Shown here one piece after another: positions 19,211 through 63,779 of a stretch of 64,000 nt of DNA. Where the stretch lies: assembly GCA_963978895.1 (NCBI GenBank), contig OZ022244.1, forward strand, positions 32,513,432 through 32,577,431, read 5' to 3'. Within the stretch, counting starts at the first letter, position 1; every line of letters starts with the position of its first letter. This stretch comes from Erpobdella octoculata. Taxonomy: Eukaryota; Annelida; Clitellata; Hirudinida; Erpobdellidae. The position numbers and the translations under genes are program-made. The notes under the pieces are model-generated. The model was not told the DNA's origin. It searched no databases and saw nothing but the letters and a program-made list of their open reading frames with translations.

Positions 19211-20914
19211 ATGAGCTCTCATGATGACCAGGATAACTGGCTACAACAAGTATGTGACATACTTAAGAAATAATATTTCTGTATTACTTAAATTCTTACA
19301 TACTAAATCGAGGTTGTTTTATTATTCTCCAAGTCGGATGAAATTGAAGTCCTGAAAGCCATTTACGATGGCAGTTTGGTTGCAGATGAGAAAGATCAAA
19401 CAAAGTTTTCTGTTACCCTTTCAGAAGGATCTGGAGTATTTCAACAATCACTAACATTGGAGGTAAATTTTAATAATGTTTAGATTTATTCATAAAGTTT
19501 TGTGTATAGCATGGTTGTTGTATAATTGTTTCTGATGAAAAGGTATGAAATATTCCAGTCTACTGCTAAATATAAGAAAGTTTTATTTTTAACCTGTTTT
19601 TCAAAAAAAATATTTTGTATAATTTTTGTTTACTCCAGATTAAATTCAGTCCAGATTATCCAAGCCATGCACCTCCGATTTACTCCATCAAGTTGGTAGT
19701 TGTGAAGATAAATTGTAAAAATGATCTACTTTAGTTTAACATTTTAAGTCACAATTTTTTATTAATAGTTTTGTTATTCTTACATGCACAATTATAAAGC
19801 GTTTTAAAAAGAAGATTTTCTGCTACTTTTAAGCTTTGTTACTAGCACATGGATGGTTAAACGATTAGCAAATCTGATTTGCATCTCATAGATCATGAGT
19901 GATTTTTGACATACTTGACTTTCTTTTTCTTCCAAGTATTTGTTAAGATTTTATGAAATTTTCGTAAGGGGTATTTTGATGCATATACAACCTTATATTC
20001 ATGGAGTTTATATGATGATTTTCTGATGCTAATAAATGTTATACTAATGAAGTCCATATAGGGGTTTTTTGTGGTTACTTACCTTATACATACACATTTT
20101 TATATAGGGTTTTCATGTTTATAAGCCTTACATTTAAAAAGTTTATATAGGGTTTTCATACCTGAATATATAAGAAGCTAACTTATTTATGACTTTTTTA
20201 AATGTAGAAAGTCTCAATTAAGACCAGATGAAAGTGCAATCATGTGCAGCCATTTTGACCAAATATATCTGTAAGTTTTAATTAATTTACTATTAATTTA
20301 TTTATTATTCAATAATAAAAAATTAGATGTTGTATTTTTTATATAAAAAATAAATATATTTATTTATTAATTTATTTTCAATTTTCCGATAAGTGACAAT
20401 TTAGGTTCGCCCGTCGTCCACTTGTGGTTGGAGAAAGCTCGCGAGATTTTGCTGGAGAAAGTCGACTCGTGTTGCGCAGCTGCTTTAGAAGATTCCAGTG
20501 TCGAGAAAGGTGACAATTCTTTTTAATGATGTTGCTCTTGATTTTAAAATAAATGATTTTTTTGGGGGGGGAAGAAATTTATTTTTTTGGGGGGGGGAAG
20601 AAATGATTTTTTTGGGGGGGACAAGATAAATTCTTCGTAAGTGCGTGCATACATGTATGCGTGTTTTTTTCTATGCACGTATATTCGTGTGGTGTGAACG
20701 TGTGTGTATTTTTATTATATAATAGCTTATAGTCTTTTACACCACCAGGTGTTTTAAGACTGAAATGGCTGTTGTTTGTAAAGAAGCACCTAAGTACTTT
20801 CTGTCGTGGATCATAATTTGATCCTTTTAACTGTCCCTCCTCCTTTATCCAGGTTGGGACTGGCTCGCAAAAGCGAGGCAGAGTTTATAATAAATGATTT
20901 AATTGATGCTTGTT

Positions 20915-20970
<56 letters not shown>

Positions 20971-23306
20971 TTTACTTTTACATGTGATAATTGTTTTAAT
21001 CAACAGCAACCGATATTGCAGAGCAGGCCATAAGCAATGATGAAGTGGCATGTAAAAAATCTGATGAAGAAGAAGAGTATGAAGAGGAACGTGGCGAAGG
21101 AGATGGAGAAGAAGAAGAAGCTTATCCGACGACATTCACGTCAAACTTTGAGCCTCATTCCGTCAGTCGGACGGATTCCAACGACGGTAAACTTCTTGAA
21201 ACGAATTCTGAATTTCTATTTTACATCTGAAATTTTTTTTATTTGATTTCCTATGTACCCGTCTTCGTGCTAGCCTGCGATAAAATCTTCTCTAATTTTA
21301 TTTTGTCCTTCAATTATATATATATATTGGCTGCAATTATAAATTTACCTAGATTCTCTCACCAGGTTATCTTTTTTAGTCGTACTTTTCCACGTAAATA
21401 GGAAAGATGGATATTTGTTTTGATTTGTTTTATCTGTTCGAGTTGAATCTACATCCTTAATATTGAGGCAATATTTTTACTTCTTAGGTGTAGAGCTTCC
21501 TCCCATACATCACGGAGAGTTTGTCAAGGACAGAAAGAGCACCTTTCAAGGACATTTGGCACCGGTAACCGACAAAAGACAGGTTGATTCAATTGTGATT
21601 TTTATTTCAATACTACATCGTATAATTATCCAACATTTTTTACGTATTGGGTTCTGGTTTCAAATTTTTATAACTTATGGTTCAGGTATAGCAAAAAAAT
21701 AGGGTAGCACAAAATTTTGGGTCTGATACCAGTGACATCCCTGATGAATGTTTATATATCATAATTTAAAAAAAACTGTTTATTATGGTGTACGTTGTTG
21801 TAGATCGGAGTTATACTCTAAGTAAAGAAATCTTGAAAATTTTCATTTCTCAGGTTGACATGGTCATGGACAAGTTAAAAGAAAACAAGAAAATAGCCGA
21901 AGCAACTCACAATATAATCGCTTACAGGTGAGTTTCAGCAGGTGAAGTCATCGCCACTGAAATCATTTGTTATACATTTAATGTGATTATTTATGAATGA
22001 TTTGTTATACATATATTGTTGTAGTTTGTGAATGATTTGTTATACATATAATGTTGTGGTTTGTGAATGATTTGTTCTACATTTAATGTGGTATTTTATC
22101 AATGATTTGTTCTACATTTAATGTGGTATTTTATGAACGATTTGTTCTACATTTAATGTGGTATTTTATGAATGATTTGTTCTACATTTAATGTGGTATT
22201 TTATGAACGATTTGTTCTACATTTAATGTTATTTTGCAGATGATTTATTTTATTTTTTATTATTAAATAAATTTCAGGATCGACTGCAAGAATGGAGGTT
22301 TCATGACGGGGAACGTCGATGACGGAGAAACTCATGCTGCTGCGAGGATGCTTCATTTGTTAGAAGTTTGTTTACTTTTTTAAGTTTGTTACTTATTTTA
22401 AGTTTGTTTACTTTTTTAAGTTTGTTTACTTTTTTAAGTTTGTTTACTTTTTTAAGTTTGTTTACTTTATTAAGTTTGTTTACTTTATTAAGTTTGTTTA
22501 ATTTTTTAAGTTTGTTTATTTTTTTTAAATTTTTAATTGTGTATATTACTGTAATTTTGTTTCAGTGTTTATATTAAAGATGTTATTTGGATAATATTAA
22601 CTATATTAAAAAGTTATATTACTATAATTTTATTTCAGTATTCATATTGAGAATATTTGAATAATATTAATTATATTATAAAGTTATGTTTCTATAATTC
22701 TATTTCATTATTTATATTAAAGATATTTAAACAATAATAATTATATTAAGATTTATATTACTATTATTTTATTTCAGTATTTATATTACTATTATTGTAT
22801 TTCAGAATTTATATTAAAGATTTTTTGAAAACTATTAGCTATGTTATTAAAAAGTTATTTAAAGAGGAAATAATGTATCGATTAAATGATAATCAGATCG
22901 TAGACGCAAGAAACGTGTTGGTGGTAGTGACCCGATGGTACGGCGGCATTCACCTCGGTCCCGATAGATTCAAACACATCAACAACTGCACGAGAGATTT
23001 ACTGGACAGGCACGGTTACATATCAGAAAAGGTAGCTCTAGCTGGTTCCTTCAATTGATTTGTTCTCAAATTAGTATTATATATAATATAATAGCCCACG
23101 TCTGTGTAAGACGTTTTTGCGTGACAATTTGCTATCTATGGCAAATCTTGTGTTTTAATAATGAAGTAGAAATAATAAGGTTATAATGTTTTTTTGCATT
23201 TGAATTTTTTGTTTTACAGACTAACAGTTCCAAGCACAGTACCAAGGGCGGCTCAGACGGTGCTCCTGCCAAGACGAAAGCCGCGCGAAAGAGCAAAAAA
23301 CACTAG
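19211..23306 (+). CDS. IMPACT: IMPACT homologue (RWD + UPF0029), GCN1-binding translational regulator
   Basis: Eleven exons: 19211-19249, 19334-19462, 19639-19691, 20208-20270, 20394-20509, 21007-21186, 21488-21582, 21854-21927, 22278-22365, 22897-23031, 23220-23306. They join in frame to 352 residues (human about 320). IMPACT binds GCN1 and so restrains GCN2 kinase activation under amino-acid stress. An N-terminal RWD domain spans about residues 14-115 (EIEVLKAIY, PDYPSHAPPIYS). An acidic Glu-rich linker lies near 140-155. The UPF0029 domain spans about 172-285, with ELPPIHHGEF, KSTFQGHLAPV, ATHNIIAYR, DDGETHAAARMLHLLE and VVVTRWYGGIHLGPDRFKHI. A basic Lys-rich tail ends the protein. The start ATG follows an A-run and precedes the RWD domain as in relatives. 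The last two exons belong to a segment present four times (22775-39000); only this copy has the upstream exons. Confidence 0.95.
20918..20966. repeat. (AT)n microsatellite in IMPACT intron
   Basis: About 24 AT dinucleotides in the intron between the exons ending at 20509 and starting at 21007. Repeated G-run blocks (TTTTTTTGGGGGG plus AAGAAA) lie upstream at about 20560-20625. Confidence 0.95.
21985..22235. repeat. ~36-bp minisatellite in IMPACT intron
   Basis: About seven imperfect copies of a unit containing GAATGATTTGTTCTACATTT and AATGTGGTATTTTAT, between exons 8 and 9. Confidence 0.9.
22362..22525. repeat. 18-bp minisatellite overlapping an IMPACT splice donor
   Basis: Tandem copies of GTTTGTTTACTTTTTTAA beginning immediately at the donor of exon 9 (GAA|GTTTG). 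The repeat therefore multiplies the donor-like GTTTG motif through the intron. Confidence 0.85.
23087..23147 (+). repeat. Small two-hairpin repeat in last IMPACT intron
   Basis: A conserved block of about 60 bp containing two perfect 6-bp stems: ACGTCT-GTGTA-AGACGT, then ATTTGC-TATCTATG-GCAAAT. The same block lies in a NARS intron at 52913-52971, and in the duplicated IMPACT fragments at about 27163, 31210 and 35222. Confidence 0.75.
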
Positions 23307-24359
23307 CAGCATATATCGACTGATACTTGTGCATGGAGTTTTTATTGTAATTATTTTATATAAATATATTATAAACAGCCTTATTTTGTTACGATGATGA
23401 TTTTGTTGTTATTTTATTGTTGTTGATGTTTGTAATAAATCTATTTGAATATAAATGTGAGACTTTTTTCTCTTCTTTATCCTTTTGTAATTACTTCTGT
23501 TTTATGTCTACACGACACGATTTATCAGTTGTTCAATAAAATAATGAATGTCTTCGGTAGATTGCCATCATTTTTCGTCATTCAAACTTCGCCAGTACAG
23601 CACATTTATCGATTATAAGTGTAAAAAGATTAAGCTCGTTTTCCTTATGAGTCCTGCGGTAGTGCAGTGCGAATTTCACACCAAAAAAAAGTTCTGCTAG
23701 CGGTGAACCGCCTCACCCTACGCTCCTCCGACCGCCTCACCTTACGCTCCACCACTGAGCTCTTAAATATCTTAACATGCAACCAAAGCTGCACTCTGCA
23801 CTCATCTACGTTAGCAAACCATTCTGTTCTGACATAAGACAAGAAGACATGTCTAGAACTCTAAACAGCTGACCTTTGTAGGATATCCTACTTTTTAATA
23901 ACTCATACTCAAATTGACTTTTTGTTTAATAGGTAGAATTGAAATGAAGTGTAAAAAAATTAGTTAAAAACTGACAATTAAAAAATGATTAACACCACAC
24001 GCTGCCAATGCAAACAATAACATCTAATTATTTTTTTCTGATGAGTTATTGCTTTTTCACTTTTAAGTTTGTTGTGGTAGAAACGTGTTTTTGTGCGAAA
24101 AGCTGCATAGAATGCATGCGGCAACTTAACCAGCCACATAATATATATATATAATATATTCCAATTATTCTATCGATACAATATGTGTGTTACCAACATG
24201 ACTGTGTGAATTATGACTCGCATTTTAAAAAGAAAGTTTGAGATGTGTCAATCAATCAAGAAATCATAATAAAGTAGGCATGGCCATGATTGAGCAGAGG
24301 TTTTTTGACTACTTTTGCTTTTGAGTTAAACTACCGTTGTTGAATTTTGTGAGCTGATA

Positions 24360-26587
24360 ATGATGTTTAATAATATATGTTTAGTAGTTTTTGTTCTGTT
24401 TGCCATAACACTTGTTCTGGCTACTTTGACAAAGTCAGCAGGTAAGAAGAAATTGATAAAAACTTTTCTAATTAATTAAGCTGCTTGTAGAAAAATAATT
24501 AATTCTTTTAAAGAAAATCAGAACTAATTATGAGTATGAGAATTAATTCAGCTGTTTGTAGAAAAATAATTAATTTTTATAAATACATTTTTTTTTAAGA
24601 AAATCAGAACGAAATATTAATAGTCGTCTCGAGTTCGTCGAATGTTTTCCACCGGAGACGAGCTGAGTTGTTGAGAAGAAATATTTACAAACAGCACGAA
24701 GAAAATACGCGAGTAAATATTTTTTTTTTATTGATTATCGATTTATTGAAAAATAAAAAATCTAAACGTCTAATTTACCTGCCGTGGAAAATTTAATTTG
24801 TTACCGAAGAAAAATCATGACTAAATTTAATAATTAAAAAATCTAAGCAATATTTGGATCAAAGTTGATTTTCAACTGGTACTTGTTGAAACAAATGCTC
24901 ATTGGAAATCTCATAGTTTTGGTTCTTGAATTATTTTGTGTCTCTTTAGTGTGTTGATGGGGGAAGGGTGTAAGGAAAAGATTTTAATGTGTTAACTGTT
25001 TGTAATTTCTGAATATTCAATCGTAGAAGTAATGTTGTTTTTCTATCGAAATCGAATCAGGATGGTGTAATAGAAGATTACATGTCTATAAATATTTACT
25101 GTCGTAATTTCATTTCTCAATTCTTTATTGAAAAAGTTCTATTTTAAACAACATTTATGAATCAGCTAGAAGCATTGGAGTTTTGAGTCTCAGATACATC
25201 TGACGTCTATGCCCCCCTTTGTTACGCCCCCCCCCCCCGGTATAAACCAGTGATGAAGGCTCTGAAGTTTTGTGAGAAACATAGAGCCACTTTTTTAAAT
25301 AAACTTTTCGTAACTTTTGTATGAAAAGCTGAAGCGTATACGAAATTTTGTCTGCTCTATAAGTGTAATTTTTTTTATAATTTAAAAAATCTATTTTTAA
25401 CTCGAATTTGTTTATAAAATAAAAGTGATTATAATTTTTTTTAATTCAATTATGTTATTTAACCCTGTTAAAATAATTAAAAAGTTAAACAAAACCATCT
25501 TTTCATGGCTATTAATCAATTAAGTTCAGTTTTTTCCCCCCAAGTTCTTCCGAACGAACTTTTCTATATGCCAAGTCGTCCTGTTAAGTGAAATCGCTGT
25601 TTTGATTGATTACAGCTATACAAGCCACAGGTGTTGCTGCTACCTGAAACCTTTCCAGAGGTCGTTGGTTCATGGACCATATTGCCAATTATGTCCAGGT
25701 GAGTTATCTTCCGACAAAAAAAAACTGTTTTTATTTATTTTGATTATTATTTTAATTTTTAATCATAATAATTTATTTGTATTTATTTATTTTAATTTAT
25801 TAAAAAAAACTTTTTATTCAGATTTTGTTATGTTTTTATTTTTTTTATATTTTCGGGCAGATTGGTGGACGAGTGTCTGACGTGCAAAGTCGTAATATTC
25901 TGCGATGATAATGTCGAAATAAACTTGACCGTTCTCGACAAAGTTTTCAAGAAGTTAGATCTTGACAAGGTTTACATATATATATAGATATATATTTATT
26001 AGTGATCTACATGTATATATAGATATATATTTATTAGTGATCTACATGTATATATAGATATATATTTATTAGTGATGTTTTAAACATTTTAAAAAAGTGT
26101 AAACAGACTACTAGAAAGTTAGTTTCGGTTAAATGGCGTTTGTATTTCAATAGAGCATGTTTATCTGAATATATTGAGCCAATTTACTGTTAATATATAT
26201 TTATATATGTGTATATATTTAAATATATATTTATAAATCACTATTTATGTAGAAATGACAGGGAGGAGTATAAGTAATAAAACTTGATTGAGTGATTTAA
26301 TATGGAGAAACGCTCAACCCTAGCATAGCGTGTAAAAGCGATGTTTCTAAAATAAGTGGTGGTGATGATGATGATGATATTAAATTTATACAGTTATAAT
26401 ACTAATAGCAAGGAATATAATAAGTTATTTTTGTTATTTACATTTTAAAGGATCAATTATTCGGTGGACGAACTCTGAAAGACAAAGATCCTACTGTCGT
26501 TCATCACTACAATTTCAAAAACGATCTTTCCTTCCAATATCCTGACTTCTCTTCTGGATTTTTCGTTTCGATGAGTTTGCTCAAAAA
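24360..26587 (+). pseudogene. B3GLCT 5' module 1 (exons 1-5, intact frame, no catalytic part)
   Basis: Exons 24360-24441, 24600-24712, 25616-25698, 25861-25969 and 26451-26587 match the first five exons of the B3GLCT at 36496-41835. They encode the signal peptide and most of the non-catalytic N-terminal domain. All splice sites and the frame are intact. It differs from the other modules at several residues, for example LVDECLTCK here against LADECETCK, and NTR against NAQ. The next downstream exon is a duplicated IMPACT exon; joining to it would give a stop within three codons. A useful product would need splicing about 12.5 kb ahead to exon 6 at 39083. It may be a pseudogene or an alternative 5' end. 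Confidence 0.85.
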
Positions 26588-26972
26588 GTGAGAGGTTTTT
26601 AAAATTTGAATGTTATTATAGTCCTGGTGATGATGATAACGATTATATTTAGGGTTGTGATGAAGATAACGATTATTTTTATAGCTGTGGTTATGATAAC
26701 GATTATTTTTATAATCATGATAAGGATTATATTCATGATAAGGATTATATTTATAGTCGTGGTGATGATAAATAATGATAATGATTGTATTTATAGTCGT
26801 GGTTATGATAATGATTATTTTTATAGTCGTGGTGATGATAACGATTATTTCAGTATTTATATTACTATTATTGTATTTCAGAATTTATATTAAAGATTTT
26901 TTGAAAACTATTAGCTATGTTATTAAAAAGTTATTTAAAGAGGAAATAATGTATCGATTAAATGATAATCAG

Positions 26973-27382
26973 ATCGTAGACGCAAGAAACGTGTTGGTGG
27001 TAGTGACCCGATGGTACGGCGGCATTCACCTCGGTCCCGATAGGTTCAAACACATCAACAACTGCACGAGAGATTTACTGGACAGGCACGGTTACATATC
27101 GGAAAAGGTAGCTCTAGCTGGTTCCTTTAATTGATTTGTTCTCAAATTAGTATTATATATAATATAATAGCCCACGTCTGTGTAAGACGTTTTTGCGTGA
27201 CAATTTGCTATCTATGGCAAATCTTGTGTTTTAATAATGAAGTAGAAATAATAAGGTTATAATGTTTTTCTGCATTTGAATTTTTTGTTTTACAGACTAA
27301 CAGTTCCAAGCACAGTACCAAGGGCGGCTCAGACGGTGCTCCTGCCAAGACGAAAGCCGCGCGAAAGAGCAAAAAACACTAG
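26973..27382 (+). pseudogene. IMPACT 3' fragment 1 (last two exons only)
   Basis: Exons 26973-27107 and 27296-27382 repeat IMPACT exons 10 and 11, with intact frame and splice sites but none of the nine upstream exons. It encodes only the end of the UPF0029 domain (VVVTRWYGGIHLGPDRFKHI region) and the basic tail. It is presumably not translated on its own, though it could be a cryptic terminal exon for transcripts starting upstream. Confidence 0.93.
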
Positions 27383-28436
27383 CAGCATATATCGACTGAT
27401 ACTTGTGCATGGAGTTTTTATTGTAATTATGTTATATAAATATATTATAAACAGCCTTATTTTGTTACGATGATGATTTTGTTGTTATTTTATTGTTGTT
27501 GATGTTTGTAATAAATCTATTTGAATATAAATGTGAGACTTTTTTCTCTTCTTTATCCTTTTGTAATTACTTCTGTTTTATGTCTACACGACACGATTTA
27601 TCAGTTGTTCAATAAAATAATGAATGTCTTCGGTAGATTGCCATCATTTTTCGTCATTCAAACTTCGCCAGTACAGCACATTTATCGATTATAAGTGTAA
27701 AAAGATTTAGCTTGTTTTCCTTATGAGTCCTGCGGTAGTGCAGTGCGAATTTCACACCAAAAAAAAGTTCTGCTCGCTGTGAACCGCCTCGCCCTACGCT
27801 CCTCCGACCGCCTCACCTTACGCTCCACCACTGAGCTATTAAATATCTTAACATGCAACCAAAGCTGCACTCTACACTCATCTACGTTAGCAAACCATTC
27901 TGGCATAAGACAAGAATTATTACGTCAATAACTCTCTAAACAGCTGACCTTTGTGGGATATCCTACTTTTAATAATAACTCATACTCAAATTGACTTTTT
28001 GTTTAATAGGTAGAATTGAAATGAAGTGTAAAAAAATTAGTTAACAACTGACAATTAAAAAATGATTAACACCACACGCTGCCAACGCAAACAATAACAT
28101 CTAATTATTTTTTTCTGATGAGTTATTGCTTTTTCACTTTTAAGTTTGTTGTGGTAGAAACGTGTTTTTGTGCGAAAAGCTGCATAGAATGCATGCGGCA
28201 ACTTAACCAGCCACATAATATATATATATAATATATTCCAATTATTCTATCGATACAATATGTGTGTTACCAACATGGCTGTGTGAATTATGACTCGCAT
28301 TTTAAAAAGAAAGTTTGAGATGTGTCAATCAATCAAGAAATCATAATAAAGTAGGCATGGCCATGATTGAGCAGAGGCTTTTTGACTACTTTTGCTTTTG
28401 AGTTAAACTACCGTTGTTGAATTTTGTGAGCTGATA

Positions 28437-30634
28437 ATGATGTTTAATAATATATGTTTAGTAGTTTTTGTTCTGTTTGCCATAGCACTTGTTCTGGCTA
28501 CTTTGACAAAGTCAGCAGGTAAGAAGAAATTGATAAAAACTTTTCTAATTAATTAAGCTGCTTGTAGAAAAATAATTAATTTTTTTAAAGAAAATCAGAA
28601 CTAATTATGAGTATGAGAATTAATTCAGCTGTTTGTAGAAAAATAATTAATTTTTATAAATACATTTTTTTTTTAAGAAAATCAGAACGAAATATTAATA
28701 GTCGTCTCGAGTTCGTCGAATGTTTTCCACCGGAGACGAGCTGAGTTGTTGAGAAGAAATATTTACAAACAGCACGAAGAAAATGCACAAGTAAATGTTT
28801 TTTTATTGATTATCGATTTATTGAAAAATAAAAAATCTAAACGTATAATTTACCTGCCGTGGAAAATTTAATTTGTTACCAAAGAAAAATCATGATTAAA
28901 TTTAATAATTAAAAAATCTAAGCAATATTTGGATCAAAGCTGATTTTCAACTGGTACTGGTTGAAACAAATGCTCATTGGAAATCTCATAGTTTTGGTTC
29001 TTGAATTATTTTGTCTCTCTACTTATTAATTTAGTGTGTTGATGGGGGAGGGGGGGGGGTAAGGAAAAGATTTTAATGTGTTAACTGTTTGTAATTTCTG
29101 AACATTCAATCGTAGAAGTAATGTTGTTTTCTACCAAAATTGAATCAGGATGAAATAATAGAAGATAGCATGTCTATAAATATTTATTGTTGTAATTTTG
29201 TTTCTCAATTCTCTATTAAAAAAAGTTCTGTTTTAAACAACATATATGAAACCAGCCAGAGGTATTGGAGTTTTGATGTTCAGAAACATCTGACCCCCAT
29301 GCCCCCCTTTTGTTACGCCCCTGGTATAAACCAGTGATGAAAAGCTGAAGCATTTACAATATTTTGTCTGCTCTATAAGTGTAATTTTTTTATAATTTAA
29401 AAAATTTATTTTTAGCTCGAATTTGTTTATAAAATAAAAGTAATTATATTTAAAAAAAAATTAAATATGTTATTTAACTATGTGAAAATAATTACAAAGT
29501 TTAACAAAACCATCTTTTCATGGCTATTAATCAATTAAGTTCAGTTTTTTCCTCAAAGTTCTTCCGAACGAACTTTTCTATATGCCAAGTCGTGTTAAGT
29601 GAAATCGCTGTTTTGATTGATTACAGCTATACAAGCCACAGGTGTTGCTGCTACCTGAAACCTTTCCAGAGGTCGTTGGTTCATGGACCATATTGCCAAT
29701 TATGTCCAGGTTAGTTACCTTCCGGAAAAAAAAACTGTTTTTATTATTTTGATTATTATTTTAATTTTTAATCATATTAATTTATTTTTATTTATTTATT
29801 TTACTTTAATAAAAAAAAACTTTTTATTCAGATTTTGTTATATTTTTATTTTTTTTATATTTTCGGACAGATTGGCGGACGAGTGTGAGACGTGCAAAGT
29901 CGTAATATTCTGCGATGATAATGTCGAAATAAACTTGACCGTTCTCGACAAAGTTTTCAAGAAGTTAGATCTTGACAAGGTTTACATATATATATAGATA
30001 TATATTTATTAGTGATCTACATGTATATATAGATATATATTTATTAGTGATCTACATGTATATATAGATATATATTTATTAGTGATCTACATGTATATAT
30101 AGATATATATTTATTAGTGATGTTTTAAACATTTTAAAAAAGTGTAAACAGACTACTAGAAAGTTAGTTTCGGTTAAATGGCGTTCGTATTTCAATAGAG
30201 CATGTTTATCTGAATATATTGAGCCAATTTACTGTTAATATATATTTATATATATGTGTATATATTTACATATATATTTATAAATCACTATTTATGTAGA
30301 AATAAAAGGGAGGAGTATAAGTAATAAAACTTGATTGAGTGATTTAATATGGAGAAACGCTCAACCCTAGCATAGCGTGTAAAAGCGATGTTTCTAAAAT
30401 AAGTGGTGGTGATGATGATGATGATATTAAATTTATACAGTTATAATACTAATAGCAAGGAATATAATAAGTTATTTTTGTTATTTACATTTTAAAGGAT
30501 CAATTATTCGGTGGACGAACTCTGAAAGACAAAGATCCTACTGTCGTTCATCACTACAATTTCAAAAACGATCTTTCCTTCCAATATCCTGACTTCTCTT
30601 CTGGATTTTTCGTTTCGATGAGTTTGCTCAAAAA
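28437..30634 (+). pseudogene. B3GLCT 5' module 2 (exons 1-5)
   Basis: Copy of B3GLCT exons 1-5 with intact start, signal peptide and splice sites. Exon 1 starts at 28437 and exon 5 is 30498-30634. Its coding sequence is practically the same as module 3. It lacks the catalytic exons. Confidence 0.85.
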
Positions 30635-31019
30635 GTGAGAGGTTTTTAAAATTTGAATGTTATTATAGTCCTGGTGATGATGATAACGATTATATTTAGG
30701 GTTGTGATGAAGATAACGATTATTTTTATAGCTGTGGTTATGATAACGATTATTTTTATAATCATGATAAGGATTATATTCATGATAAGGATTATATTTA
30801 TAGTCGTGGTGATGATAAATAATGATAATGATTGTATTTATAGTCGTGGTTATGATAATGATTATTTTTATAGTCGTGGTGATGATAACGATTATTTCAG
30901 TATTTATATTACTATTATTGTATTTCAGAATTTATATTAAAGATTTTTTGAAAACTATTAGCTATGTTATTAAAAAGTTATTTAAAGAGGAAATAATGTA
31001 TCGATTAAATGATAATCAG

Positions 31020-31429
31020 ATCGTAGACGCAAGAAACGTGTTGGTGGTAGTGACCCGATGGTACGGCGGCATTCACCTCGGTCCCGATAGGTTCAAACAC
31101 ATCAACAACTGCACGAGAGATTTACTGGACAGGCACGGTTACATATCGGAAAAGGTAGCTCTAGCTGGTTCCTTCAATTGATTTGTTCTCAAATTAGTAT
31201 TATATATAATATAATAGCCCACGTCTGTGTAAGACGTTTTTGCGTGACAATTTGCTATCTATGGCAAATCTTGTGTTTTAATAATGAAGTAGAAATAATA
31301 AGGTTATAATGTTTTTCTGCATTTGAATTTTTTGTTTTACAGACTAACAGTTCCAAGCACAGTACCAAGGGCGGCTCAGACGGTGCTCCTGCCAAGACGA
31401 AAGCCGCGCGAAAGAGCAAAAAACACTAG
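31020..31429 (+). pseudogene. IMPACT 3' fragment 2 (last two exons only)
   Basis: Exons 31020-31154 and 31343-31429, the third occurrence of IMPACT exons 10 and 11. Frame intact, no upstream exons. Confidence 0.93.
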
Positions 31430-32483
31430 CAGCATATATCGACTGATACTTGTGCATGGAGTTTTTATTGTAATTATGTTATATAAATATATTATAAACA
31501 GCCTTATTTTGTTACGATGATGATTTTGTTGTTATTTTATTGTTGTTGATGTTTGTAATAAATCTATTTGAATATAAATGTGAGACTTTTTTCTCTTCTT
31601 TATCCTTTTGTAATTACTTCTGTTTTATGTCTACACGACACGATTTATCAGTTGTTCAATAAAATAATGAATGTCTTCGGTAGATTGCCATCATTTTTCG
31701 TCATTCAAACTTCGCCAGTACAGCACATTTATCGATTATAAGTGTAAAAAGATTTAGCTTGTTTTCCTTATGAGTCCTGCGGTAGTGCAGTGCGAATTTC
31801 ACACCAAAAAAAAGTTCTGCTCGCTGTGAACCGCCTCGCCCTACGCTCCTCCGACCGCCTCACCTTACGCTCCACCACTGAGCTATTAAATATCTTAACA
31901 TGCAACCAAAGCTGCACTCTACACTCATCTACGTTAGCAAACCATTCTGGCATAAGACAAGAATTATTACGTCAATAACTCTCTAAACAGCTGACCTTTG
32001 TGGGATATCCTACTTTTAATAATAACTCATACTCAAATTGACTTTTTGTTTAATAGGTAGAATTGAAATGAAGTGTAAAAAAATTAGTTAACAACTGACA
32101 ATTAAAAAATGATTAACACCACACGCTGCCAACGCAAACAATAACATCTAATTATTTTTTTCTGATGAGTTATTGCTTTTTCACTTTTAAGTTTGTTGTG
32201 GTAGAAACGTGTTTTTGTGCGAAAAGCTGCATAGAATGCATGCGGCAACTTAACCAGCCACATAATATATATATATAATATATTCCAATTATTCTATCGA
32301 TACAATATGTGTGTTACCAACATGGCTGTGTGAATTATGACTCGCATTTTAAAAAGAAAGTTTGAGATGTGTCAATCAATCAAGAAATCATAATAAAGTA
32401 GGCATGGCCATGATTGAGCAGAGGCTTTTTGACTACTTTTGCTTTTGAGTTAAACTACCGTTGTTGAATTTTGTGAGCTGATA

Positions 32484-34646
32484 ATGATGTTTAATAATAT
32501 ATGTTTAGTAGTTTTTGTTCTGTTTGCCATAGCACTTGTTCTGGCTACTTTGACAAAGTCAGCAGGTAAGAAGAAATTGATAAAAACTTTTCTAATTAAT
32601 TAAGCTGCTTGTAGAAAAATAATTAATTTTTTTAAAGAAAATCAGAACTAATTATGAGTATGAGAATTAATTCAGCTGTTTGTAGAAAAATAATTAATTT
32701 TTATAAATACATTTTTTTTTTAAGAAAATCAGAACGAAATATTAATAGTCGTCTCGAGTTCGTCGAATGTTTTCCACCGGAGACGAGCTGAGTTGTTGAG
32801 AAGAAATATTTACAAACAGCACGAAGAAAATGCACAAGTAAATGTTTTTTTATTGATTATCGATTTATTGAAAAATAAAAAATCTAAACGTATAATTTAC
32901 CTGCCGTGGAAAATTTAATTTGTTACCAAAGAAAAATCATGATTAAATTTAATAATTAAAAAATCTAAGCAATATTTGGATCAAAGCTGATTTTCAACTG
33001 GTACTGGTTGAAACAAATGCTCATTGGAAATCTCATAGTTTTGGTTCTTGAATTATTTTGTCTCTCTACTTATTAATTTAGTGTGTTGATGGGGGAGAGG
33101 GGGGGGTAAGGAAAAGATTTTAATGTGTTAACTGTTTGTAATTTCTGAACATTCAATCGTAGAAGTAATGTTGTTTTCTACCAAAATTGAATCAGGATGA
33201 AATAATAGAAGATAGCATGTCTATAAATATTTATTGTTGTAATTTTGTTTCTCAATTCTCTATTAAAAAAAGTTCTGTTTTAAACAACATATATGAAACC
33301 AGCCAGAGGTATTGGAGTTTTGATGTTCAGAAACATCTGACCCCCATGCCCCCCTTTTGTTACGCCCCTGGTATAAACCAGTGATGAAAAGCTGAAGCAT
33401 TTACAATATTTTGTCTGCTCTATAAGTGTAATTTTTTTATAATTTAAAAAATTTATTTTTAGCTCGAATTTGTTTATAAAATAAAAGTAATTATATTTAA
33501 AAAAAAATTAAATATGTTATTTAACTATGTGAAAATAATTACAAAGTTTAACAAAACCATCTTTTCATGGCTATTAATCAATTAAGTTCAGTTTTTTCCT
33601 CAAAGTTCTTCCGAACGAACTTTTCTATATGCCAAGTCGTGTTAAGTGAAATCGCTGTTTTGATTGATTACAGCTATACAAGCCACAGGTGTTGCTGCTA
33701 CCTGAAACCTTTCCAGAGGTCGTTGGTTCATGGACCATATTGCCAATTATGTCCAGGTTAGTTACCTTCCGGAAAAAAAAACTGTTTTTATTATTTTGAT
33801 TATTATTTTAATTTTTAATCATATTAATTTATTTTTATTTATTTATTTTACTTTAATAAAAAAAAACTTTTTATTCAGATTTTGTTATATTTTTATTTTT
33901 TTTATATTTTCGGACAGATTGGCGGACGAGTGTGAGACGTGCAAAGTCGTAATATTCTGCGATGATAATGTCGAAATAAACTTGACCGTTCTCGACAAAG
34001 TTTTCAAGAAGTTAGATCTTGACAAGGTTTACATATATATATAGATATATATTTATTAGTGATCTACATGTATATATAGATATATATTTATTAGTGATCT
34101 ACATGTATATATAGATATATATTTATTAGTGATGTTTTAAACATTTTAAAAAAGTGTAAACAGACTACTAGAAAGTTAGTTTCGGTTAAATGGCGTTCGT
34201 ATTTCAATAGAGCATGTTTATCTGAATATATTGAGCCAATTTACTGTTAATATATATTTATATATATGTGTATATATTTACATATATATTTATAAATCAC
34301 TATTTATGTAGAAATAAAAGGGAGGAGTATAAGTAATAAAACTTGATTGAGTGATTTAATATGGAGAAACGCTCAACCCTAGCATAGCGTGTAAAAGCGA
34401 TGTTTCTAAAATAAGTGGTGGTGATGATGATGATGATATTAAATTTATACAGTTATAATACTAATAGCAAGGAATATAATAAGTTATTTTTGTTATTTAC
34501 ATTTTAAAGGATCAATTATTCGGTGGACGAACTCTGAAAGACAAAGATCCTACTGTCGTTCATCACTACAATTTCAAAAACGATCTTTCCTTCCAATATC
34601 CTGACTTCTCTTCTGGATTTTTCGTTTCGATGAGTTTGCTCAAAAA
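32484..34646 (+). pseudogene. B3GLCT 5' module 3 (exons 1-5)
   Basis: Third copy of B3GLCT exons 1-5 with intact start and splice sites. Exon 1 starts at 32484 and exon 5 is 34510-34646. No catalytic exons follow before the next IMPACT fragment. Confidence 0.85.
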
Positions 34647-34909
34647 GTGAGAGGTTTTTAAAATTTGAATGTTATTATAGTCCTGGTGATGATGATAACG
34701 ATTATATTTAGGGTTGTGATGAAGATAACGATTATTTTTATAGCTGTGGTTATGATAACGATTATTTTTATAATCATGATAAGGATTATATTCATGATAA
34801 GGATTATATTTATAGTCGTGGTGATGATAAATAATGATAATGATTGTATTTATAGTCGTGGTTATGATAATGATTATTTTTATAGTCGTGGTGATGATAA
34901 CGATTATTT

Positions 34910-37900
34910 CAGTATTTATATTACTATTATTGTATTTCAGAATTTATATTAAAGATTTTTTGAAAACTATTAGCTATGTTATTAAAAAGTTATTTAAAGA
35001 GGAAATAATGTATCGATTAAATGATAATCAGATCGTAGACGCAAGAAACGTGTTGGTGGTAGTGACCCGATGGTACGGCGGCATTCACCTCGGTCCCGAT
35101 AGGTTCAAACACATCAACAACTGCACGAGAGATTTACTGGACAGGCACGGTTACATATCGGAAAAGGTAGCTCTAGCTGGTTCCTTCAATTGATTTGTTC
35201 TCAAATTAGTATTATATATAATATAATAGCCCACGTCTGTGTAAGACGTTTTTGCGTGACAATTTGCTATCTATGGCAAATCTTGTGTTTTAATAATGAA
35301 GTAGAAATAATAAGGTTATAATGTTTTTCTGCATTTGAATTTTTTGTTTTACAGACTAACAGTTCCAAGCACAGTACCAAGGGCGGCTCAGACGGTGCTC
35401 CTGCCAAGACGAAAGCCGCGCGAAAGAGCAAAAAACACTAGCAGCATATATCGACTGATACTTGTGCATGGAGTTTTTATTGTAATTATGTTATATAAAT
35501 ATATTATAAACAGCCTTATTTTGTTACGATGATGATTTTGTTGTTATTTTATTGTTGTTGATGTTTGTAATAAATCTATTTGAATATAAATGTGAGACTT
35601 TTTTCTCTTCTTTATCCTTTTGTAATTACTTCTGTTTTATGTCTACACGACACGATTTATCAGTTGTTCAATAAAATAATGAATGTCTTCGGTAGATTGC
35701 CATCATTTTTCGTCATTCAAACTTCGCCAGTACAGCACATTTATCGATTATAAGTGTAAAAAGATTTAGCTTGTTTTCCTTATGAGTCCTGCGGTAGTGC
35801 AGTGCGAATTTCACACCAAAAAAAAGTTCTGCTCGCTGTGAACCGCCTCGCCCTACGCTCCTCCGACCGCCTCACCTTACGCTCCACCACTGAGCTATTA
35901 AATATCTTAACATGCAACCAAAGCTGCACTCTACACTCATCTACGTTAGCAAACCATTCTGGCATAAGACAAGAATTATTACGTCAATAACTCTCTAAAC
36001 AGCTGACCTTTGTGGGATATCCTACTTTTAATAATAACTCATACTCAAATTGACTTTTTGTTTAATAGGTAGAATTGAAATGAAGTGTAAAAAAATTAGT
36101 TAACAACTGACAATTAAAAAATGATTAACACCACACGCTGCCAACGCAAACAATAACATCTAATTATTTTTTTCTGATGAGTTATTGCTTTTTCACTTTT
36201 AAGTTTGTTGTGGTAGAAACGTGTTTTTGTGCGAAAAGCTGCATAGAATGCATGCGGCAACTTAACCAGCCACATAATATATATATATAATATATTCCAA
36301 TTATTCTATCGATACAATATGTGTGTTACCAACATGGCTGTGTGAATTATGACTCGCATTTTAAAAAGAAAGTTTGAGATGTGTCAATCAATCAAGAAAT
36401 CATAATAAAGTAGGCATGGCCATGATTGAGCAGAGGCTTTTTGACTACTTTTGCTTTTGAGTTAAACTACCGTTGTTGAATTTTGTGAGCTGATAATGAT
36501 GTTTAATAATATATGTTTAGTAGTTTTTGTTCTGTTTGCCATAGCACTTGTTCTGGCTACTTTGACAAAGTCAGCAGGTAAGAAGAAATTGATAAAAACT
36601 TTTCTAATTAATTAAGCTGCTTGTAGAAAAATAATTAATTTTTTTAAAGAAAATCAGAACTAATTATGAGTATGAGAATTAATTCAGCTGTTTGTAGAAA
36701 AATAATTAATTTTTATAAATACATTTTTTTTTTAAGAAAATCAGAACGAAATATTAATAGTCGTCTCGAGTTCGTCGAATGTTTTCCACCGGAGACGAGC
36801 TGAGTTGTTGAGAAGAAATATTTACAAACAGCACGAAGAAAATGCACAAGTAAATGTTTTTTTATTGATTATCGATTTATTGAAAAATAAAAAATCTAAA
36901 CGTATAATTTACCTGCCGTGGAAAATTTAATTTGTTACCAAAGAAAAATCATGATTAAATTTAATAATTAAAAAATCTAAGCAATATTTGGATCAAAGCT
37001 GATTTTCAACTGGTACTGGTTGAAACAAATGCTCATTGGAAATCTCATAGTTTTGGTTCTTGAATTATTTTGTCTCTCTACTTATTAATTTAGTGTGTTG
37101 ATGGGGGAGGGGGGGGGGTAAGGAAAAGATTTTAATGTGTTAACTGTTTGTAATTTCTGAACATTCAATCGTAGAAGTAATGTTGTTTTCTACCAAAATT
37201 GAATCAGGATGAAATAATAGAAGATAGCATGTCTATAAATATTTATTGTTGTAATTTTGTTTCTCAATTCTCTATTAAAAAAAGTTCTGTTTTAAACAAC
37301 ATATATGAAACCAGCCAGAGGTATTGGAGTTTTGATGTTCAGAAACATCTGACCCCCATGCCCCCCTTTTGTTACGCCCCTGGTATAAACCAGTGATGAA
37401 AAGCTGAAGCATTTACAATATTTTGTCTGCTCTATAAGTGTAATTTTTTTATAATTTAAAAAATTTATTTTTAGCTCGAATTTGTTTATAAAATAAAAGT
37501 AATTATATTTAAAAAAAAATTAAATATGTTATTTAACTATGTGAAAATAATTACAAAGTTTAACAAAACCATCTTTTCATGGCTATTAATCAATTAAGTT
37601 CAGTTTTTTCCTCAAAGTTCTTCCGAACGAACTTTTCTATATGCCAAGTCGTGTTAAGTGAAATCGCTGTTTTGATTGATTACAGCTATACAAGCCACAG
37701 GTGTTGCTGCTACCTGAAACCTTTCCAGAGGTCGTTGGTTCATGGACCATATTGCCAATTATGTCCAGGTTAGTTACCTTCCGGAAAAAAAAACTGTTTT
37801 TATTATTTTGATTATTATTTTAATTTTTAATCATATTAATTTATTTTTATTTATTTATTTTACTTTAATAAAAAAAAACTTTTTATTCAGATTTTGTTAT

Positions 37901-39000
37901 ATTTTTATTTTTTTTATATTTTCGGACAGATTGGCGGACGAGTGTGAGACGTGCAAAGTCGTAATATTCTGCGATGATAATGTCGAAATAAACTTGACCG
38001 TTCTCGACAAAGTTTTCAAGAAGTTAGATCTTGACAAGGTTTACATATATATATAGATATATATTTATTAGTGATCTACATGTATATATAGATATATATT
38101 TATTAGTGATCTACATGTATATATAGATATATATTTATTAGTGATCTACATGTATATATAGATATATATTTATTAGTGATGTTTTAAACATTTTAAAAAA
38201 GTGTAAACAGACTACTAGAAAGTTAGTTTCGGTTAAATGGCGTTCGTATTTCAATAGAGCATGTTTATCTGAATATATTGAGCCAATTTACTGTTAATAT
38301 ATATTTATATATATGTGTATATATTTACATATATATTTATAAATCACTATTTATGTAGAAATAAAAGGGAGGAGTATAAGTAATAAAACTTGATTGAGTG
38401 ATTTAATATGGAGAAACGCTCAACCCTAGCATAGCGTGTAAAAGCGATGTTTCTAAAATAAGTGGTGGTGATGATGATGATGATATTAAATTTATACAGT
38501 TATAATACTAATAGCAAGGAATATAATAAGTTATTTTTGTTATTTACATTTTAAAGGATCAATTATTCGGTGGACGGCCTCTGAAAGACAAAGATCCTAC
38601 TGTCGTTCATCACTACAATTTCAAAAACGATCTTTCCTTCCAATATCCCGACTTCTCTTCTGGCTTTTTCGTTTCGATGAGTTTGCTCAAAAAGTGAGAG
38701 GTTTTTAAAATTTGAATGTTATTATAGTCCTGGTGATGATGATAACGATTATATTTAGGGTTGTAATGAAGATAACGATTATTTTTATAGCTGTGGTTAT
38801 GATAATGATTATTTTTGTAGTCGTGGTTATGATAACGATTATTTTTATAGTCGTGGTGGTGATACTGATTATTTTTATAATCGTGATAATGATTATATTT
38901 ATAGCCGTGATGATGATAACGATTATATTTATAGTCGTGGTGATGATAAATAATGCTAATGATTGTATTTATAGTCGTGGTTGCGATAATGATTATTTTT
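34910..39000 (+). repeat. Tandem segmental duplication, unit 4, continuing into unique B3GLCT
   Basis: The last unit runs through the position where the others break and continues into the full-length, unduplicated tandem array of B3GLCT intron 5 (about 38712-39060). Most of the unit is nearly identical to units 2 and 3. Exon 5 differs in both DNA and protein (GRPLKDK rather than GRTLKDK), so its 3' end looks like the ancestral locus. Confidence 0.95.
35032..35441 (+). pseudogene. IMPACT 3' fragment 3 (last two exons only)
   Basis: Exons 35032-35166 and 35355-35441, the fourth occurrence of IMPACT exons 10 and 11, about 1 kb upstream of the complete B3GLCT model. Frame intact, no upstream exons. 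Confidence 0.93.
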
Positions 39001-41835
39001 ATAATTGCGGTTATGATAACGATTATATTTATAATCTTGATGATGATAATGATTGCATGTGGTGAATTTTTCGTTCTTTCAGACTCTCCGAGCGATTCAA
39101 GAGGGATGAAGCAAAAATTGATTTTTCCATCGATGCTTACTACGAGGTGGTTTGAATTTTGCAGTAAAAACAAATTATTAACATAACATTTATTTATAGA
39201 TTTATTTAGATTCATAACTTGACTTTATTGATATTATTATTTTTATTCAAATAAATATTACAAGTTATTTCTAGTGATATGAAATTAAATTAAATATTGT
39301 CTGTTGTTCAAATGTTTTTCAGTTTGTACTGTTTCAGAAAATAATACAAGTTATTTTTAAAATAATTCAAAATTAAATTAATTTTTTTATTTAAAATATT
39401 TTTCAGTTTGCACAGTTTGTACACAACGAGGGCCAAGGAATTAATTTCACGAAATTCGATTCTTTCTGCGGATTCAAAGAAAAATCACCGAACTGTGCCG
39501 TGTCCTGTTCAAGTAGAATGCCGAAATGCGTTCGCAAGTTTTCTTCTATGTTTCTTTTATTAACTAATTATTAATTATTAATTATTATTATTTATTATTA
39601 TTATTATTATTATTGATGTTGTTGTCAATCATATGTTTTATTTTAATGACTTTCTTCTTTCTGCCATTTTTGTGATTTGTTTATGTATGTATTGATAACT
39701 GAATAAACATTCTCATTGTCTTAATTTCGGATACATTTTTTTCTCCATTTAGGATGGGTATCCTACTGAAAACAAAGATGTTTTTGTTGCAGTGAAGACT
39801 TGTGAGAAGTATCATAAAAAGAGATGTCAGTTGATGGAATCGATTTAGTCTTTTATCCCGCTGTTATGCTTGTATTGCATTGTATTGTATTGTATTACAT
39901 TGCATTGCATTGTATTGCATTATATTGTATTGTGTTGTATTGTATTGTATTGTATTGTATTGTATTGTATTACAAGGAACTGATGACTCATAATGTGCTT
40001 ACCAACAAACATCTGTGGTGTTGGTTGTGCGATTTTTAACCGTCAACCTTCTAATCTAAAAACCACTTCATTATTATTTCGACACGAGTTCTCCAAAAAC
40101 AGTATCGGAAATGTTTTTTTACAGAATTACTACCTAGTAGATGAAATCAATTTAAGTTTAATAATAATAATATTTCCAGTGTCGATTTTGAACTTGTACT
40201 CGAAACCTCAGTACTCGTACTCGATACCATGGTACTTGTACTCGATACCATGGTACTCGTACTCGAACCATAAGAACTTGCAACATCTCTGAAATAAATT
40301 TAAGTTTAATAATAATATTTCCAGTGTCGATTTTGAAGAAGACGTGGGGACGACGGGTCGAAAACATCCGATACTTTAGCGACGTCGAAGACGAAACGAT
40401 ACCTACGATATACGCCGGGGTTCCGAACACCGAACACGGTTTTGTCTTAATCGTATATATTATTGCATTTATTTTTATTTAAAGGTTTTTTCACTAGATT
40501 TCTTTTTTTAATTATTTCATATCAAATAATTGAATGAAAACTGTTTTTCTTTAAATATAATTTTTCAGGTCATTGTAAGAAGTTCTTTTTGATTCTGGAG
40601 TATGCTTACGAATTGTTTAAAAATTCCAACTTCAAATGGCTTTTCGTTGCTGACGATGATACTTTGTTGAGGTGACTGATACTTTACTGTGGTGATTGGT
40701 ACTTTGTTGAGATGAATTTTACATCGTTGAGATGAATGATACACTGTTGAGATGATTAATGCTTTGTTGAGAAGAACGGTACTTTGTTGAGGTGAATTAA
40801 TCATTGTTGAGATGAATGGTACTTTGTTGAGATGATTGATACACTGTTGAGATGATTAATGCTTTGTTGAGAAGAATGGTACTTTGTTGAGGTGAATTAA
40901 TCTTTGTTGAGATGATTGATACATTGTTGAGATGATTAACACTTTGTTGATATGAATGATACTTTAAAAGTTCCGTCAGTTGACAAGTAACATCCAAAAA
41001 TCTGACCGTGGAATGGTCAGCTGTTTAAATTTCAGTCGTTTTGAAACACATTTGCTTTTAACTCTAACAGCATGGAAAGACTTCTGAACCTCCTGTCGTG
41101 CTACGACCCGAGCGATCTCGTCTTCCTCGGAGAGCGTTACGGATACGGAGTCGTGAGCGGGCACGGATACGACTACGTCACTCTCGGCGGAGGGTTAGTG
41201 GATCTTTTAGAGACGCATCAATCCGAATGAATATTTAAGCGGCTTCTGCTGCACATGGCGTTATATAAATTGTCGTCTTTATTATTATTATTATTCTAAA
41301 ATTATAAATTTACATATTCAAATTGATTTGTATATGTTTTTATCTTCTTTAAACACTTTCTATGATATCGAATCAATCACACTATTCTCACGTCTATGTA
41401 AATAGAGTTTTTTTTTTAAGGTTCCTACTCAGATTTTAATCAAGAGTTTTAATTTTAACATATTAAAGTAGCTTGTGATGTTTCGAGTATAAATTCCATT
41501 GAAAACGAAAAATACTTGTTCACAGGATGGCAATTAGTAGAAAAGGACTCGAAACCGTCCTGGAAAGCAAGAAATGCGGTTGCGCCAAAGCGGACGCTCC
41601 GGACGACATGACGATGGGCATGTGCCTCCATCACTTGCAGCTTCCCGTCGTTCACAGTCCGCTGTTCCACCAAGCACGACCGATCGATTACCCAGCAGCC
41701 TACCTGGAGAACCAGCTGCCCGTATCGTTCCATCGACACTGGGACAATGATGCCGTCGCGGCCTACGGAAAGTGGCTCGAAAGTGAAAATTCCAAGTCGT
41801 CCGAGAAGAGTAAAAGCGTGAAAAAAGAACTCTAG
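36496..41835 (+). CDS. B3GLCT: Beta-1,3-glucosyltransferase (O-fucose extension), complete model
   Basis: Twelve exons: 36496-36577, 36737-36849, 37686-37768, 37930-38038, 38557-38693, 39083-39146, 39407-39529, 39753-39825, 40325-40438, 40569-40671, 41071-41193, 41526-41835. They join in frame to 477 residues (human about 498). B3GLCT adds glucose to O-linked fucose on thrombospondin type 1 repeats in the ER. Exon 1 encodes a hydrophobic signal peptide (residues ~5-22). The N-terminal, non-catalytic half includes [19 protein letters not shown] and [10 protein letters not shown]. The catalytic GT31 half includes [26 protein letters not shown], the metal-binding DDD at 328-330, [21 protein letters not shown] and [14 protein letters not shown]. 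The C-terminal KKEL resembles human REEL and should retain it in the ER. Two ATGs are adjacent; I use the first. Exons 1-5 are the fourth copy of a repeated module, so the true promoter may be another copy. Confidence 0.95.
38712..39060. repeat. ~30-bp minisatellite in B3GLCT intron 5
   Basis: Imperfect tandem units such as TATAGTCGTGGTTATGATAA followed by CGATTATTTT. Units 1-3 of the large duplication carry shortened versions (for example 26606-26850) that end at the duplication junction. Confidence 0.9.
39868..39976. repeat. (ATTGT)n pentamer repeat
   Basis: TATTG/CATTG pentamers in the B3GLCT intron that follows exon 8. Confidence 0.9.
40143..40338 (+). repeat. Duplicated splice acceptor in B3GLCT
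   Basis: A block starting AATTTAAGTTTAATAATAAT and ending CAGTGTCGATTTTGAA occurs at 40149-40193 and again at 40297-40338. The second copy is the real exon 9 acceptor. The first is a decoy that soon diverges into short repeats of ACTCGATACCATGGTACT. Confidence 0.85.
40655..40965 (+). repeat. Minisatellite grown from the B3GLCT exon 10/donor junction
   Basis: About 13 imperfect units of GATACTTTGTTGAGATGA. The first unit is the end of exon 10 (coding DDDTLLR) plus its donor GTGACT; the rest lie in the intron. Several units keep a donor-like G|GTGA. Confidence 0.9.
41232..41295 (+). mobile_element. Short retroelement 3' tail (second copy)
   Basis: CTTCTGCTGCACA, then GGCGTTATATAA, then (ATT)n, in a B3GLCT intron. 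It matches the minus-strand copy at 10440-10535. Confidence 0.5.
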
Positions 41836-47973: not shown

Positions 47974-56437
<8,464 letters not shown>

Positions 56438-62738: not shown

Positions 62739-63779
62739 TTAATGCCAGATGTCTATGCGTCCACTCCATGTCGAAGCTGCACACATGCCGGTGATGACTG
62801 GATGCCAATTCACGTCTAAGATTACGTCGCCCGTATGGGGCGACCCTATCTTTGTGATGACGTTGCTCGTCCTGTAGTTATAAAATACGACTTGACCATC
62901 GGCACTTCCACTGGCAACTATTCCTCCGTTGGGGTTTATGTCACACCCGACATTATAGCCCGAAACCTGTAAGAAAATAGATATTGTAACATTTAAAATA
63001 CTTGACTCGTCCGAATATTCGTAGCCGGGGCCGCCTAATCAACAGAGCAATGAAGCGGTACTAATCTAAAATATTTTTTTAGATTATTGGCCAAGATTTA
63101 GAATAAAATTTTGAGCCAATTTTTATTGTTCTGTTATGGGCAGCCTTTCAAATTATATTACTCATACTTACCTTGTGGCAGTTATAACGTTTGGACTTGT
63201 TCATTCTGTACGGAGGTTCCGATGAGAACTGTGCAATATAATCTCCTTGGGTTTGGGCTATGAACTCTTTCCTGAACGGATGACATCTCAGACGCGGGCA
63301 AGTGTACTTCTCCTATAATTGAAATAGGCGGACGTTAATGCAACACCCGAGTCGACGTTCACGTATATACGTGACAAAACTACGGAAGATCTCACACGTG
63401 GAATATTTCATTGGAAATGGCAGCTGCGGCAGAAAAATCCCAGACCATGATGCATCTATCTGACGAATCTCGGCTCACGAAATCACAGGAAGTCAAGAAT
63501 TCCTTATCGGACAGAAAGCAAATATCCAAAACCTGACTCGAAAATTAATATCTGGTAAGTTGTTGTATCAGCTTATTATTCAATAACTAAGCTTTCTAAT
63601 GATCTTAACCTGTCCGATTTTGTCCTTGTATTTATACTTCTTTACCGGTTTTGTAGGTATCCTAGTATCCCAGCATAAAATTGTGTCCGTGGAGCCTGTC
63701 AATACGGCGCTAGAATCGATCGGATGAAATTTGACGCTTGTCAAATAGTTCTCAAATGAGGAGGAGAATACCTGCATCC
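62739..63779 (-). CDS. WDR25: WD-repeat protein WDR25, C-terminal part (5' end missing)
   Basis: Four minus-strand exons: 63610-63779, 63398-63532, 63172-63312, 62739-62966. They encode about 224 residues, each join in phase. Human WDR25 is a WD40-repeat protein of poorly known function, related to the splicing factor CDC40/PRP17. Recognisable blocks: FHPIDSSAVLTGSTDTILCWD, FLTSCDFVSRDSSDRCIMVWD, YTCPRLRCHP with PYRMNKSKRYNCH, GYNVGCDINPNGGIVASGSA and, at the end, WSGRIDIWH immediately before the stop. About half of the protein must lie upstream, beyond the window or in its last 220 bp, where I see no coding resemblance. The GSADG and IDIWH ending matches WDR25 better than CDC40. Confidence 0.85.

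Follow-up and report, generated by a model that had tools for sequence, protein, structure and literature searches.

A four-unit tandem array of IMPACT and B3GLCT segments in the leech Erpobdella octoculata, probably shaped by tandem duplication and unequal crossing over

In a 64,000-nucleotide stretch of the Erpobdella octoculata genome (hereafter the window; assembly GCA_963978895.1, contig OZ022244.1, positions 32513432-32577431), a segment that begins in an intron of IMPACT and ends in an intron of the gene downstream, B3GLCT, stands four times in direct succession. Comparison of the window with itself resolved four direct copies with a unit of 4.0-4.1 kb and so confirmed, in the assembled sequence, the tandem array of ~4-kb units claimed by an initial reading of the DNA (the first-pass annotation); chance repeats were ruled out by the copy length of ~4 kb and by the identity of 94-99.95% over the aligned pieces. 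We consider it likely that a tandem duplication was followed by unequal crossing over between its two products, A and B, and that the chimeric gene structures at the internal junctions are probably inert.

The units start at window positions 22769, 26845, 30892 and 34904, with start-to-start spacings of 4076, 4047 and 4012, and all features of the array lie on the plus strand. Unit 1 occupies 22769-26844, unit 2 26845-30891, unit 3 30892-34903 and unit 4 34904-38949, this last unit running into a 30-bp minisatellite and ending near 38949-39054. The first-pass annotation thus had the number of units right, but its start at 22775 shifts to 22769 and the end falls within the minisatellite at 38733-39054. 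Every unit contains IMPACT exons 10-11, the last two of that gene, together with B3GLCT exons 1-5. In unit 1 the IMPACT exons are those of the whole IMPACT gene, followed by orphan B3GLCT exons 1-5 at 24360-24441, 24600-24712, 25616-25698, 25861-25969 and 26451-26587. Unit 2 has orphan IMPACT exons at 26973-27107 and 27296-27382 and orphan B3GLCT exons at 28437-28518, 28678-28790, 29627-29709, 29871-29979 and 30498-30634; the corresponding positions in unit 3 are 31020-31154 and 31343-31429 for IMPACT and 32484-32565, 32725-32837, 33674-33756, 33918-34026 and 34510-34646 for B3GLCT. In unit 4 the orphan IMPACT exons (35032-35166, 35355-35441) are followed by exons 1-5 of the whole B3GLCT gene (36496-36577, 36737-36849, 37686-37768, 37930-38038, 38557-38693). 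Both parent genes are whole, IMPACT reaching its end in unit 1 and B3GLCT having its start in unit 4. The locus therefore holds one whole IMPACT, three orphan IMPACT 3' ends of two exons each, three orphan B3GLCT 5' modules of exons 1-5 each and one complete B3GLCT, a tally given earlier that agrees with our gene models and with a genome search using the B3GLCT protein.

The units differ from one another in a strictly ordered way. The alignment has 140 variable columns free of gaps: 122 distinguish unit 1, 17 distinguish unit 4 and one is private to unit 2, and none groups units 1 and 4. The unit-1 sites span 22968 to 26259 and the unit-4 sites 26471 to 26834; between them lies a 211-bp stretch identical in all four units (26260-26470 in unit 1 coordinates), in which we place the crossover. 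From 26260 to the unit end, units 1-3 show zero differences, and before the equivalent of 26260, units 2-4 are separated by two base differences and one step of a 35-bp variable number tandem repeat (VNTR). If x denotes the part of a unit up to 26259 and y the part from 26260, the order along the array is xA-yA, xB-yA, xB-yA, xB-yB, with a single switch point; the chance of so perfect an order would be ~4e-22 under independence of the sites, an assumption that holds only in part. The first-pass annotation had described a diverged unit 1 beside near-identical units 2-4. That description is correct for 22769-26259 but fails from 26260 onward, where it is unit 4 that stands out and units 1-3 do not differ. 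The diverged parts are the two outer ends of the array rather than a single unit, and the near-identical stretch, ~26260-38576, is out of register with the units drawn earlier. We also observed that 73 bp at ~26300-26372, inside the presumed crossover interval, are 84% like a stretch of a second locus on the same contig (L019, described below) and may be dispersed sequence.

Unequal crossing over between a pair of parental copies leaves just this order of A and B types. A founding tandem duplication, its breaks falling in intron 9 of IMPACT and in intron 5 of B3GLCT, the downstream gene in the same orientation, would have produced two copies, A and B. Copy A of one chromatid may then have paired with copy B of another and crossed over within 26260-26470, which would give A, a B/A hybrid and B; a second such event, as the site patterns suggest, would bring the array to four units. 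The outer units would thus represent the parents, A and B, with B-then-A hybrids in the two inner units. Gene conversion among four pre-existing copies, with no unequal crossing over at all, is an improbable source of the mosaic: conversion also yields near-identical tracts, and the patchy A/B divergence suggests that some took place, but it needs tracts that respect one boundary in all units and confine xA to the leftmost unit and yB to the rightmost, whereas crossing over gives the observed unit order directly.

Up to 26259, A and B differ at 113 of 2796 aligned non-exon sites (~4%), and per branch the recent copies differ ~120-fold less than A and B do (34-fold at the 95% bound). This divergence is uneven, with 4 differences in the first 800 columns and ~10% in two patches. 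Exons differ at 9 of 609 sites against the 113 of 2796 outside them (Fisher p = 0.001), a result not taken as proof of constraint because the divergence is patchy. Relative to units 2-4 (compared through unit 4), unit 1 also has a replaced stretch of ~37 bp 5' of B3GLCT exon 1 (~23826-23862) and an extra ~68 bp in B3GLCT intron 2 (~25255-25325). The earlier proposal of an older duplication followed by recent expansion holds in that the A and B types and the site partition point to a first duplication and to recent growth; the word "older" is uncertain, since a single recent exchange between homologues could have brought A and B together as two alleles, with allele a on the left, allele b on the right and expansion thereafter. 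This allelic origin is a possibility that we hold only tentatively. The two ends of the array are each of a different type, the patchy divergence resembles an allelic mosaic, and the substitution counts are compatible with constraint on both types: unit 1 and unit 4 differ in B3GLCT exons 1-5 by 7 nonsynonymous and 4 synonymous changes (proportions of differing nonsynonymous and synonymous sites, pN 0.017 and pS 0.035), and A and B in IMPACT exons 10-11 by 0 nonsynonymous and 2 synonymous changes. B3GLCT exons 1-4 alone, with 6 nonsynonymous changes to 1 synonymous, look more as expected if one copy had lost constraint, a hint only at Fisher p = 1; one of these differences, at residue 99, is L in unit 1 and E in units 2-4, and E also stands in P0003, which alone among 11 aligned homologues shares the C-x-x-C spacing. 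Because the numbers are small, substitution counts do not decide between old duplicates and alleles.

The breakpoints lie in two different genes, both on the plus strand: the left one in IMPACT intron 9 (22366-22896) and the right one in B3GLCT intron 5 (38694-39082). Within these introns the left breakpoint (22769) is contained in a 70-bp tandem repeat at 22542-22788 and the right one in the 30-bp minisatellite at 38733-39054, so that both fall inside arrays called by Tandem Repeats Finder with a score of at least 200, which make up 6.3% of the window outside units 2-4. At duplication junction 1 (26834-26854) the B3GLCT-intron minisatellite is joined to IMPACT intron 9, and the other two junctions, near 30892 and 34904, have the same sequence. 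Six bp at the junction, TTATTT, are compatible with either side, the minisatellite repeat or the IMPACT intron; among random junctions between these repeat tracts, 1.3% share a stretch of at least 6 bp. The context is identical over 65 bp at all three junctions, which argues for a single founding event.

The genome (386 Mb in 94 contigs) was searched with 2151 bp of the unit (22800-24950), a query chosen without the VNTR-associated dispersed element described below, and this recovered all four units: 4 of the 43 matches were full-length, all within the array, and the remaining 39 were short matches to a dispersed stretch of ~70 bp. With the B3GLCT protein, 27 of 28 matches fell at the locus, exons 1-5 being found four times each and exons 6-12 once, and the sole match elsewhere was weak (on C5, 3.1e-4). 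No further copy of the unit was found elsewhere with either the 2151 bp or the protein, and it is likely that the unit has none. Absence is likely rather than proven because only the best candidates were scored (the best 40 of 695 for the 2151-bp query) and because the search with the whole unit was swamped: its 152 matches came from 39 scored candidates, and those listed all belonged to the VNTR-associated element, with even the window's own copies missing from them, which gives an absent hit in that search little weight. The idea that a dispersed element carries the unit was rejected, since the 2151 bp were found at no other place among the candidates scored and only short inner elements recur.

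Two such elements were seen within the units. The 35-bp VNTR in B3GLCT intron 4 has 3, 4, 3 and 4 copies in units 1-4 (25973-26076, 29983-30121, 34030-34133 and 38042-38180, plus strand); together with ~175 bp after it (25973-26251 and the copies in units 2-4), it is part of a genome-dispersed element with 72-91% identity among the matches listed, and in B3GLCT this element starts right after the exon 4 splice donor. The ~70-bp stretch lies in IMPACT intron 10 (23067-23146, and again at 52907-52972) and is a short, well-conserved dispersed element with 81-99% identity in 39 other listed matches.

False duplication is the main caveat for the array itself. Two haplotypes or error-rich reads could have been assembled as tandem copies and so have created the array or its copy number, which we judge rather unlikely. 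The 4% distance between A and B could be allelic, and false duplication affected 4-16% of the sequence in a set of earlier assemblies and can create false chimeric genes (PMC9516828). Counting against such an artefact, the window contains no N and no gap between copies; the three junctions share a novel sequence within two introns, which alleles placed side by side would not make by themselves; the units have private variants (at 27128, at 33098 and in the VNTR, 3/4/3/4); and the assembly comprises 94 contigs for 386 Mb.

Within a unit the end of IMPACT precedes the front of B3GLCT, the fusion described in the first-pass annotation, but the junction that would be transcribed joins the two the other way round, the 5' part of the downstream gene (B3GLCT) to the 3' part of the upstream gene (IMPACT), and it occurs three times. 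Each internal junction would thereby create a chimeric gene structure while leaving the parents whole. The three predicted structures, all on the plus strand, consist of B3GLCT exons 1-5 followed by IMPACT exons 10-11 and span 24360-27382, 28437-31429 and 32484-35441, with poly(A)-type hexamers (AATAAA or ATTAAA) downstream at 27510, 31557 and 35569. A chimeric transcription unit would comprise the presumed B3GLCT promoter region, which is assumed to lie inside the unit upstream of exon 1, the signal-peptide exon, exons 2-5, and then IMPACT exons 10-11 with the poly(A) signal that follows them.

Splicing to the normal IMPACT acceptor would join phase 2 to phase 0 and put the chimera out of frame: a 174-residue N-terminal part of B3GLCT is followed by K, S and a stop at the third codon past the junction, 176 amino acids (aa) in all. 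By exon lengths this stop lies ~128 nt before the last exon junction, a distance at which mRNA decay is likely, and the normal-acceptor chimera would probably yield either decayed mRNA or a truncated N-terminal fragment. The chimeras are probably functionally inert. A different outcome would follow from the acceptor at 26882, 91 nt upstream of the normal one, which reads in frame to the IMPACT stop with a predicted length of 278 aa and, at 8.56, scores best of the ten candidate acceptors above 2 in 26640-26990; the acceptor at 26915 (score 3.47) is likewise in frame, for a predicted 267 aa. The scoring model is rough, being built on 21 acceptors of IMPACT and B3GLCT. If 26882 and its copies were used, the locus would hold three in-frame B3GLCT-IMPACT chimeric genes in tandem, a family still young and changing, which we regard as very unlikely; driven by each B3GLCT promoter, the product would combine the N-terminal part of B3GLCT and its signal peptide with ~31 new residues derived from the IMPACT intron and the basic IMPACT C terminus. 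It is highly doubtful, in the same way, that the chimeras are working genes, spliced from exon 5 to 26882 (30929 and 34941 by unit spacing), whose copy number is selected, and hardly probable that they make a 278-aa protein starting with the B3GLCT signal peptide and ending in the IMPACT C terminus. The top-scoring acceptor does read through to the IMPACT stop and 26915 is in frame as well, but a third of all frames would read through by chance, the chimera includes only ~1/3 of the UPF0029 domain, and the scores depend on 21 sites. Two other products were considered and rejected as out of frame, namely exon-duplicated B3GLCT isoforms (exon 5 joined to the following unit's exon 2) and IMPACT exon 9 spliced to B3GLCT exon 2.

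Several observations weigh against the history of duplication, unequal crossing over and inert chimeras that we prefer. Of the 17 unit-4 sites, 13 lie in the loosely aligned minisatellite and 4 outside it. The patchy A/B divergence is unlike a simple clock, and gene conversion or allelic mosaicism must have contributed to it; the VNTR order of 3-4-3-4 requires an additional slippage or conversion step. The placement of the breakpoints and the 6 shared bp are suggestive only. The normal, out-of-frame acceptor scores 0.56 when left out of the model and 5.72 when included, against 8.56 for the in-frame one, and a single assembly is the basis for both the four-unit copy number and the presumed fate of the chimeric RNA.

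The parent genes were modelled by splicing from the DNA, and both read intact, with no internal stops. IMPACT (19211-23306, plus strand) has 11 exons, at 19211-19249, 19334-19462, 19639-19691, 20208-20270, 20394-20509, 21007-21186, 21488-21582, 21854-21927, 22278-22365, 22897-23031 and 23220-23306, and encodes 352 aa with matches to Pfam UPF0029 (5.1e-31) and RWD (2.1e-16) and, in PDB, to Protein IMPACT homolog (2.7e-29). The acceptor of its exon 10 is weak; the boundary is backed by a second IMPACT-like gene, which has the same residues after an AG. That gene lies ~0.2 Mb downstream on the opposite strand (L019, G000:C7:32749000-32758990, minus strand, ~3012-7098) and shares the exon 9/10 boundary of the array IMPACT; a search of its locus with the exon 1-5 part of B3GLCT, the only portion used there, found no match. 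B3GLCT (36496-41835, plus strand) has 12 exons, 1-5 in unit 4 and 6-12 at 39083-39146, 39407-39529, 39753-39825, 40325-40438, 40569-40671, 41071-41193 and 41526-41835. Its 477-aa model matches Pfam Fringe (6e-65), and its homologues are named beta-1,3-glucosyltransferase, with a best identity of 46-47%. At ~40140-40350, 5' of B3GLCT exon 9, a short tandem duplication copies the acceptor and first bases of the exon (CAGTGTCGATTTTGAA) and so provides a decoy acceptor. Elsewhere in the window we noted two exon-sized frames on the minus strand, one at 1418-1831 that matches the C-terminal domain of glycosyl hydrolase family 65 (3.8e-05, 23.8 bits, cut-off 22) and one at 62739-63038 with WD40-type matches under the curated cut-offs.

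Hybrid genes arise by unequal crossing over in tandem pairs in Hb Lepore and anti-Lepore and in the red and green opsins. The leech array resembles these in having internal hybrid units between outer units of two parental types, but they join whole paralogous genes, whereas the leech unit consists of parts of two genes unrelated to each other. The meeting of the downstream gene's front with the upstream gene's end, with both parents left whole, follows from the geometry of a tandem duplication and is what is seen at this locus. It is well documented that tandem duplications which ignore gene boundaries make chimeric genes, as in Drosophila yakuba and D. simulans (PMC5460883, PMC4503668), with 76 chimeric genes among 1116 tandem duplications in D. 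yakuba (PMC5460883). Breakpoints inside genes and exon shuffling at the junction are common to those cases and ours (PMC5460883, PMC4503668); the leech locus differs in having been amplified to four units with three tandem chimeras and hybrid inner units, and its chimeras are predicted from sequence. The yeast CUP1 array has a unit of 1.2-2 kb, little or no junction homology and an often changing copy number; in its type 1 repeats the unit includes YHR054C, a truncated version of the flanking gene RSC30, of which a single complete copy stands where the array ends. CUP1 is itself a complete gene, and its arrays lengthen under copper selection (PMC4232551). The leech array is a close structural match in its tandem units with a truncated neighbour copy, the whole copy at the array end and little founding homology (a junction overlap of 6 bp, versus at most 3 in CUP1), but its unit contains no complete gene and a dosage benefit is not evident (PMC4232551).

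A literature search that left out most subscription papers found no earlier report of an IMPACT-B3GLCT array among the papers listed, and the locus is a further example of a known process, the formation of chimeric genes by tandem duplication. It is an unusually legible one, in which a duplication blind to gene boundaries was founded in tandem-repeat DNA and would have been amplified by unequal exchange, with the crossover placed within 211 bp and both parent genes spared. For annotation it carries a warning, as automatic models of IMPACT and B3GLCT here may emerge duplicated, truncated or fused. The array is most likely neutral, and its copy number most likely varies within the species. Provided that reads confirm the copies, individuals should differ in copy number, and the locus could be used to study the mutation rates of arrays and the fate of chimeras.

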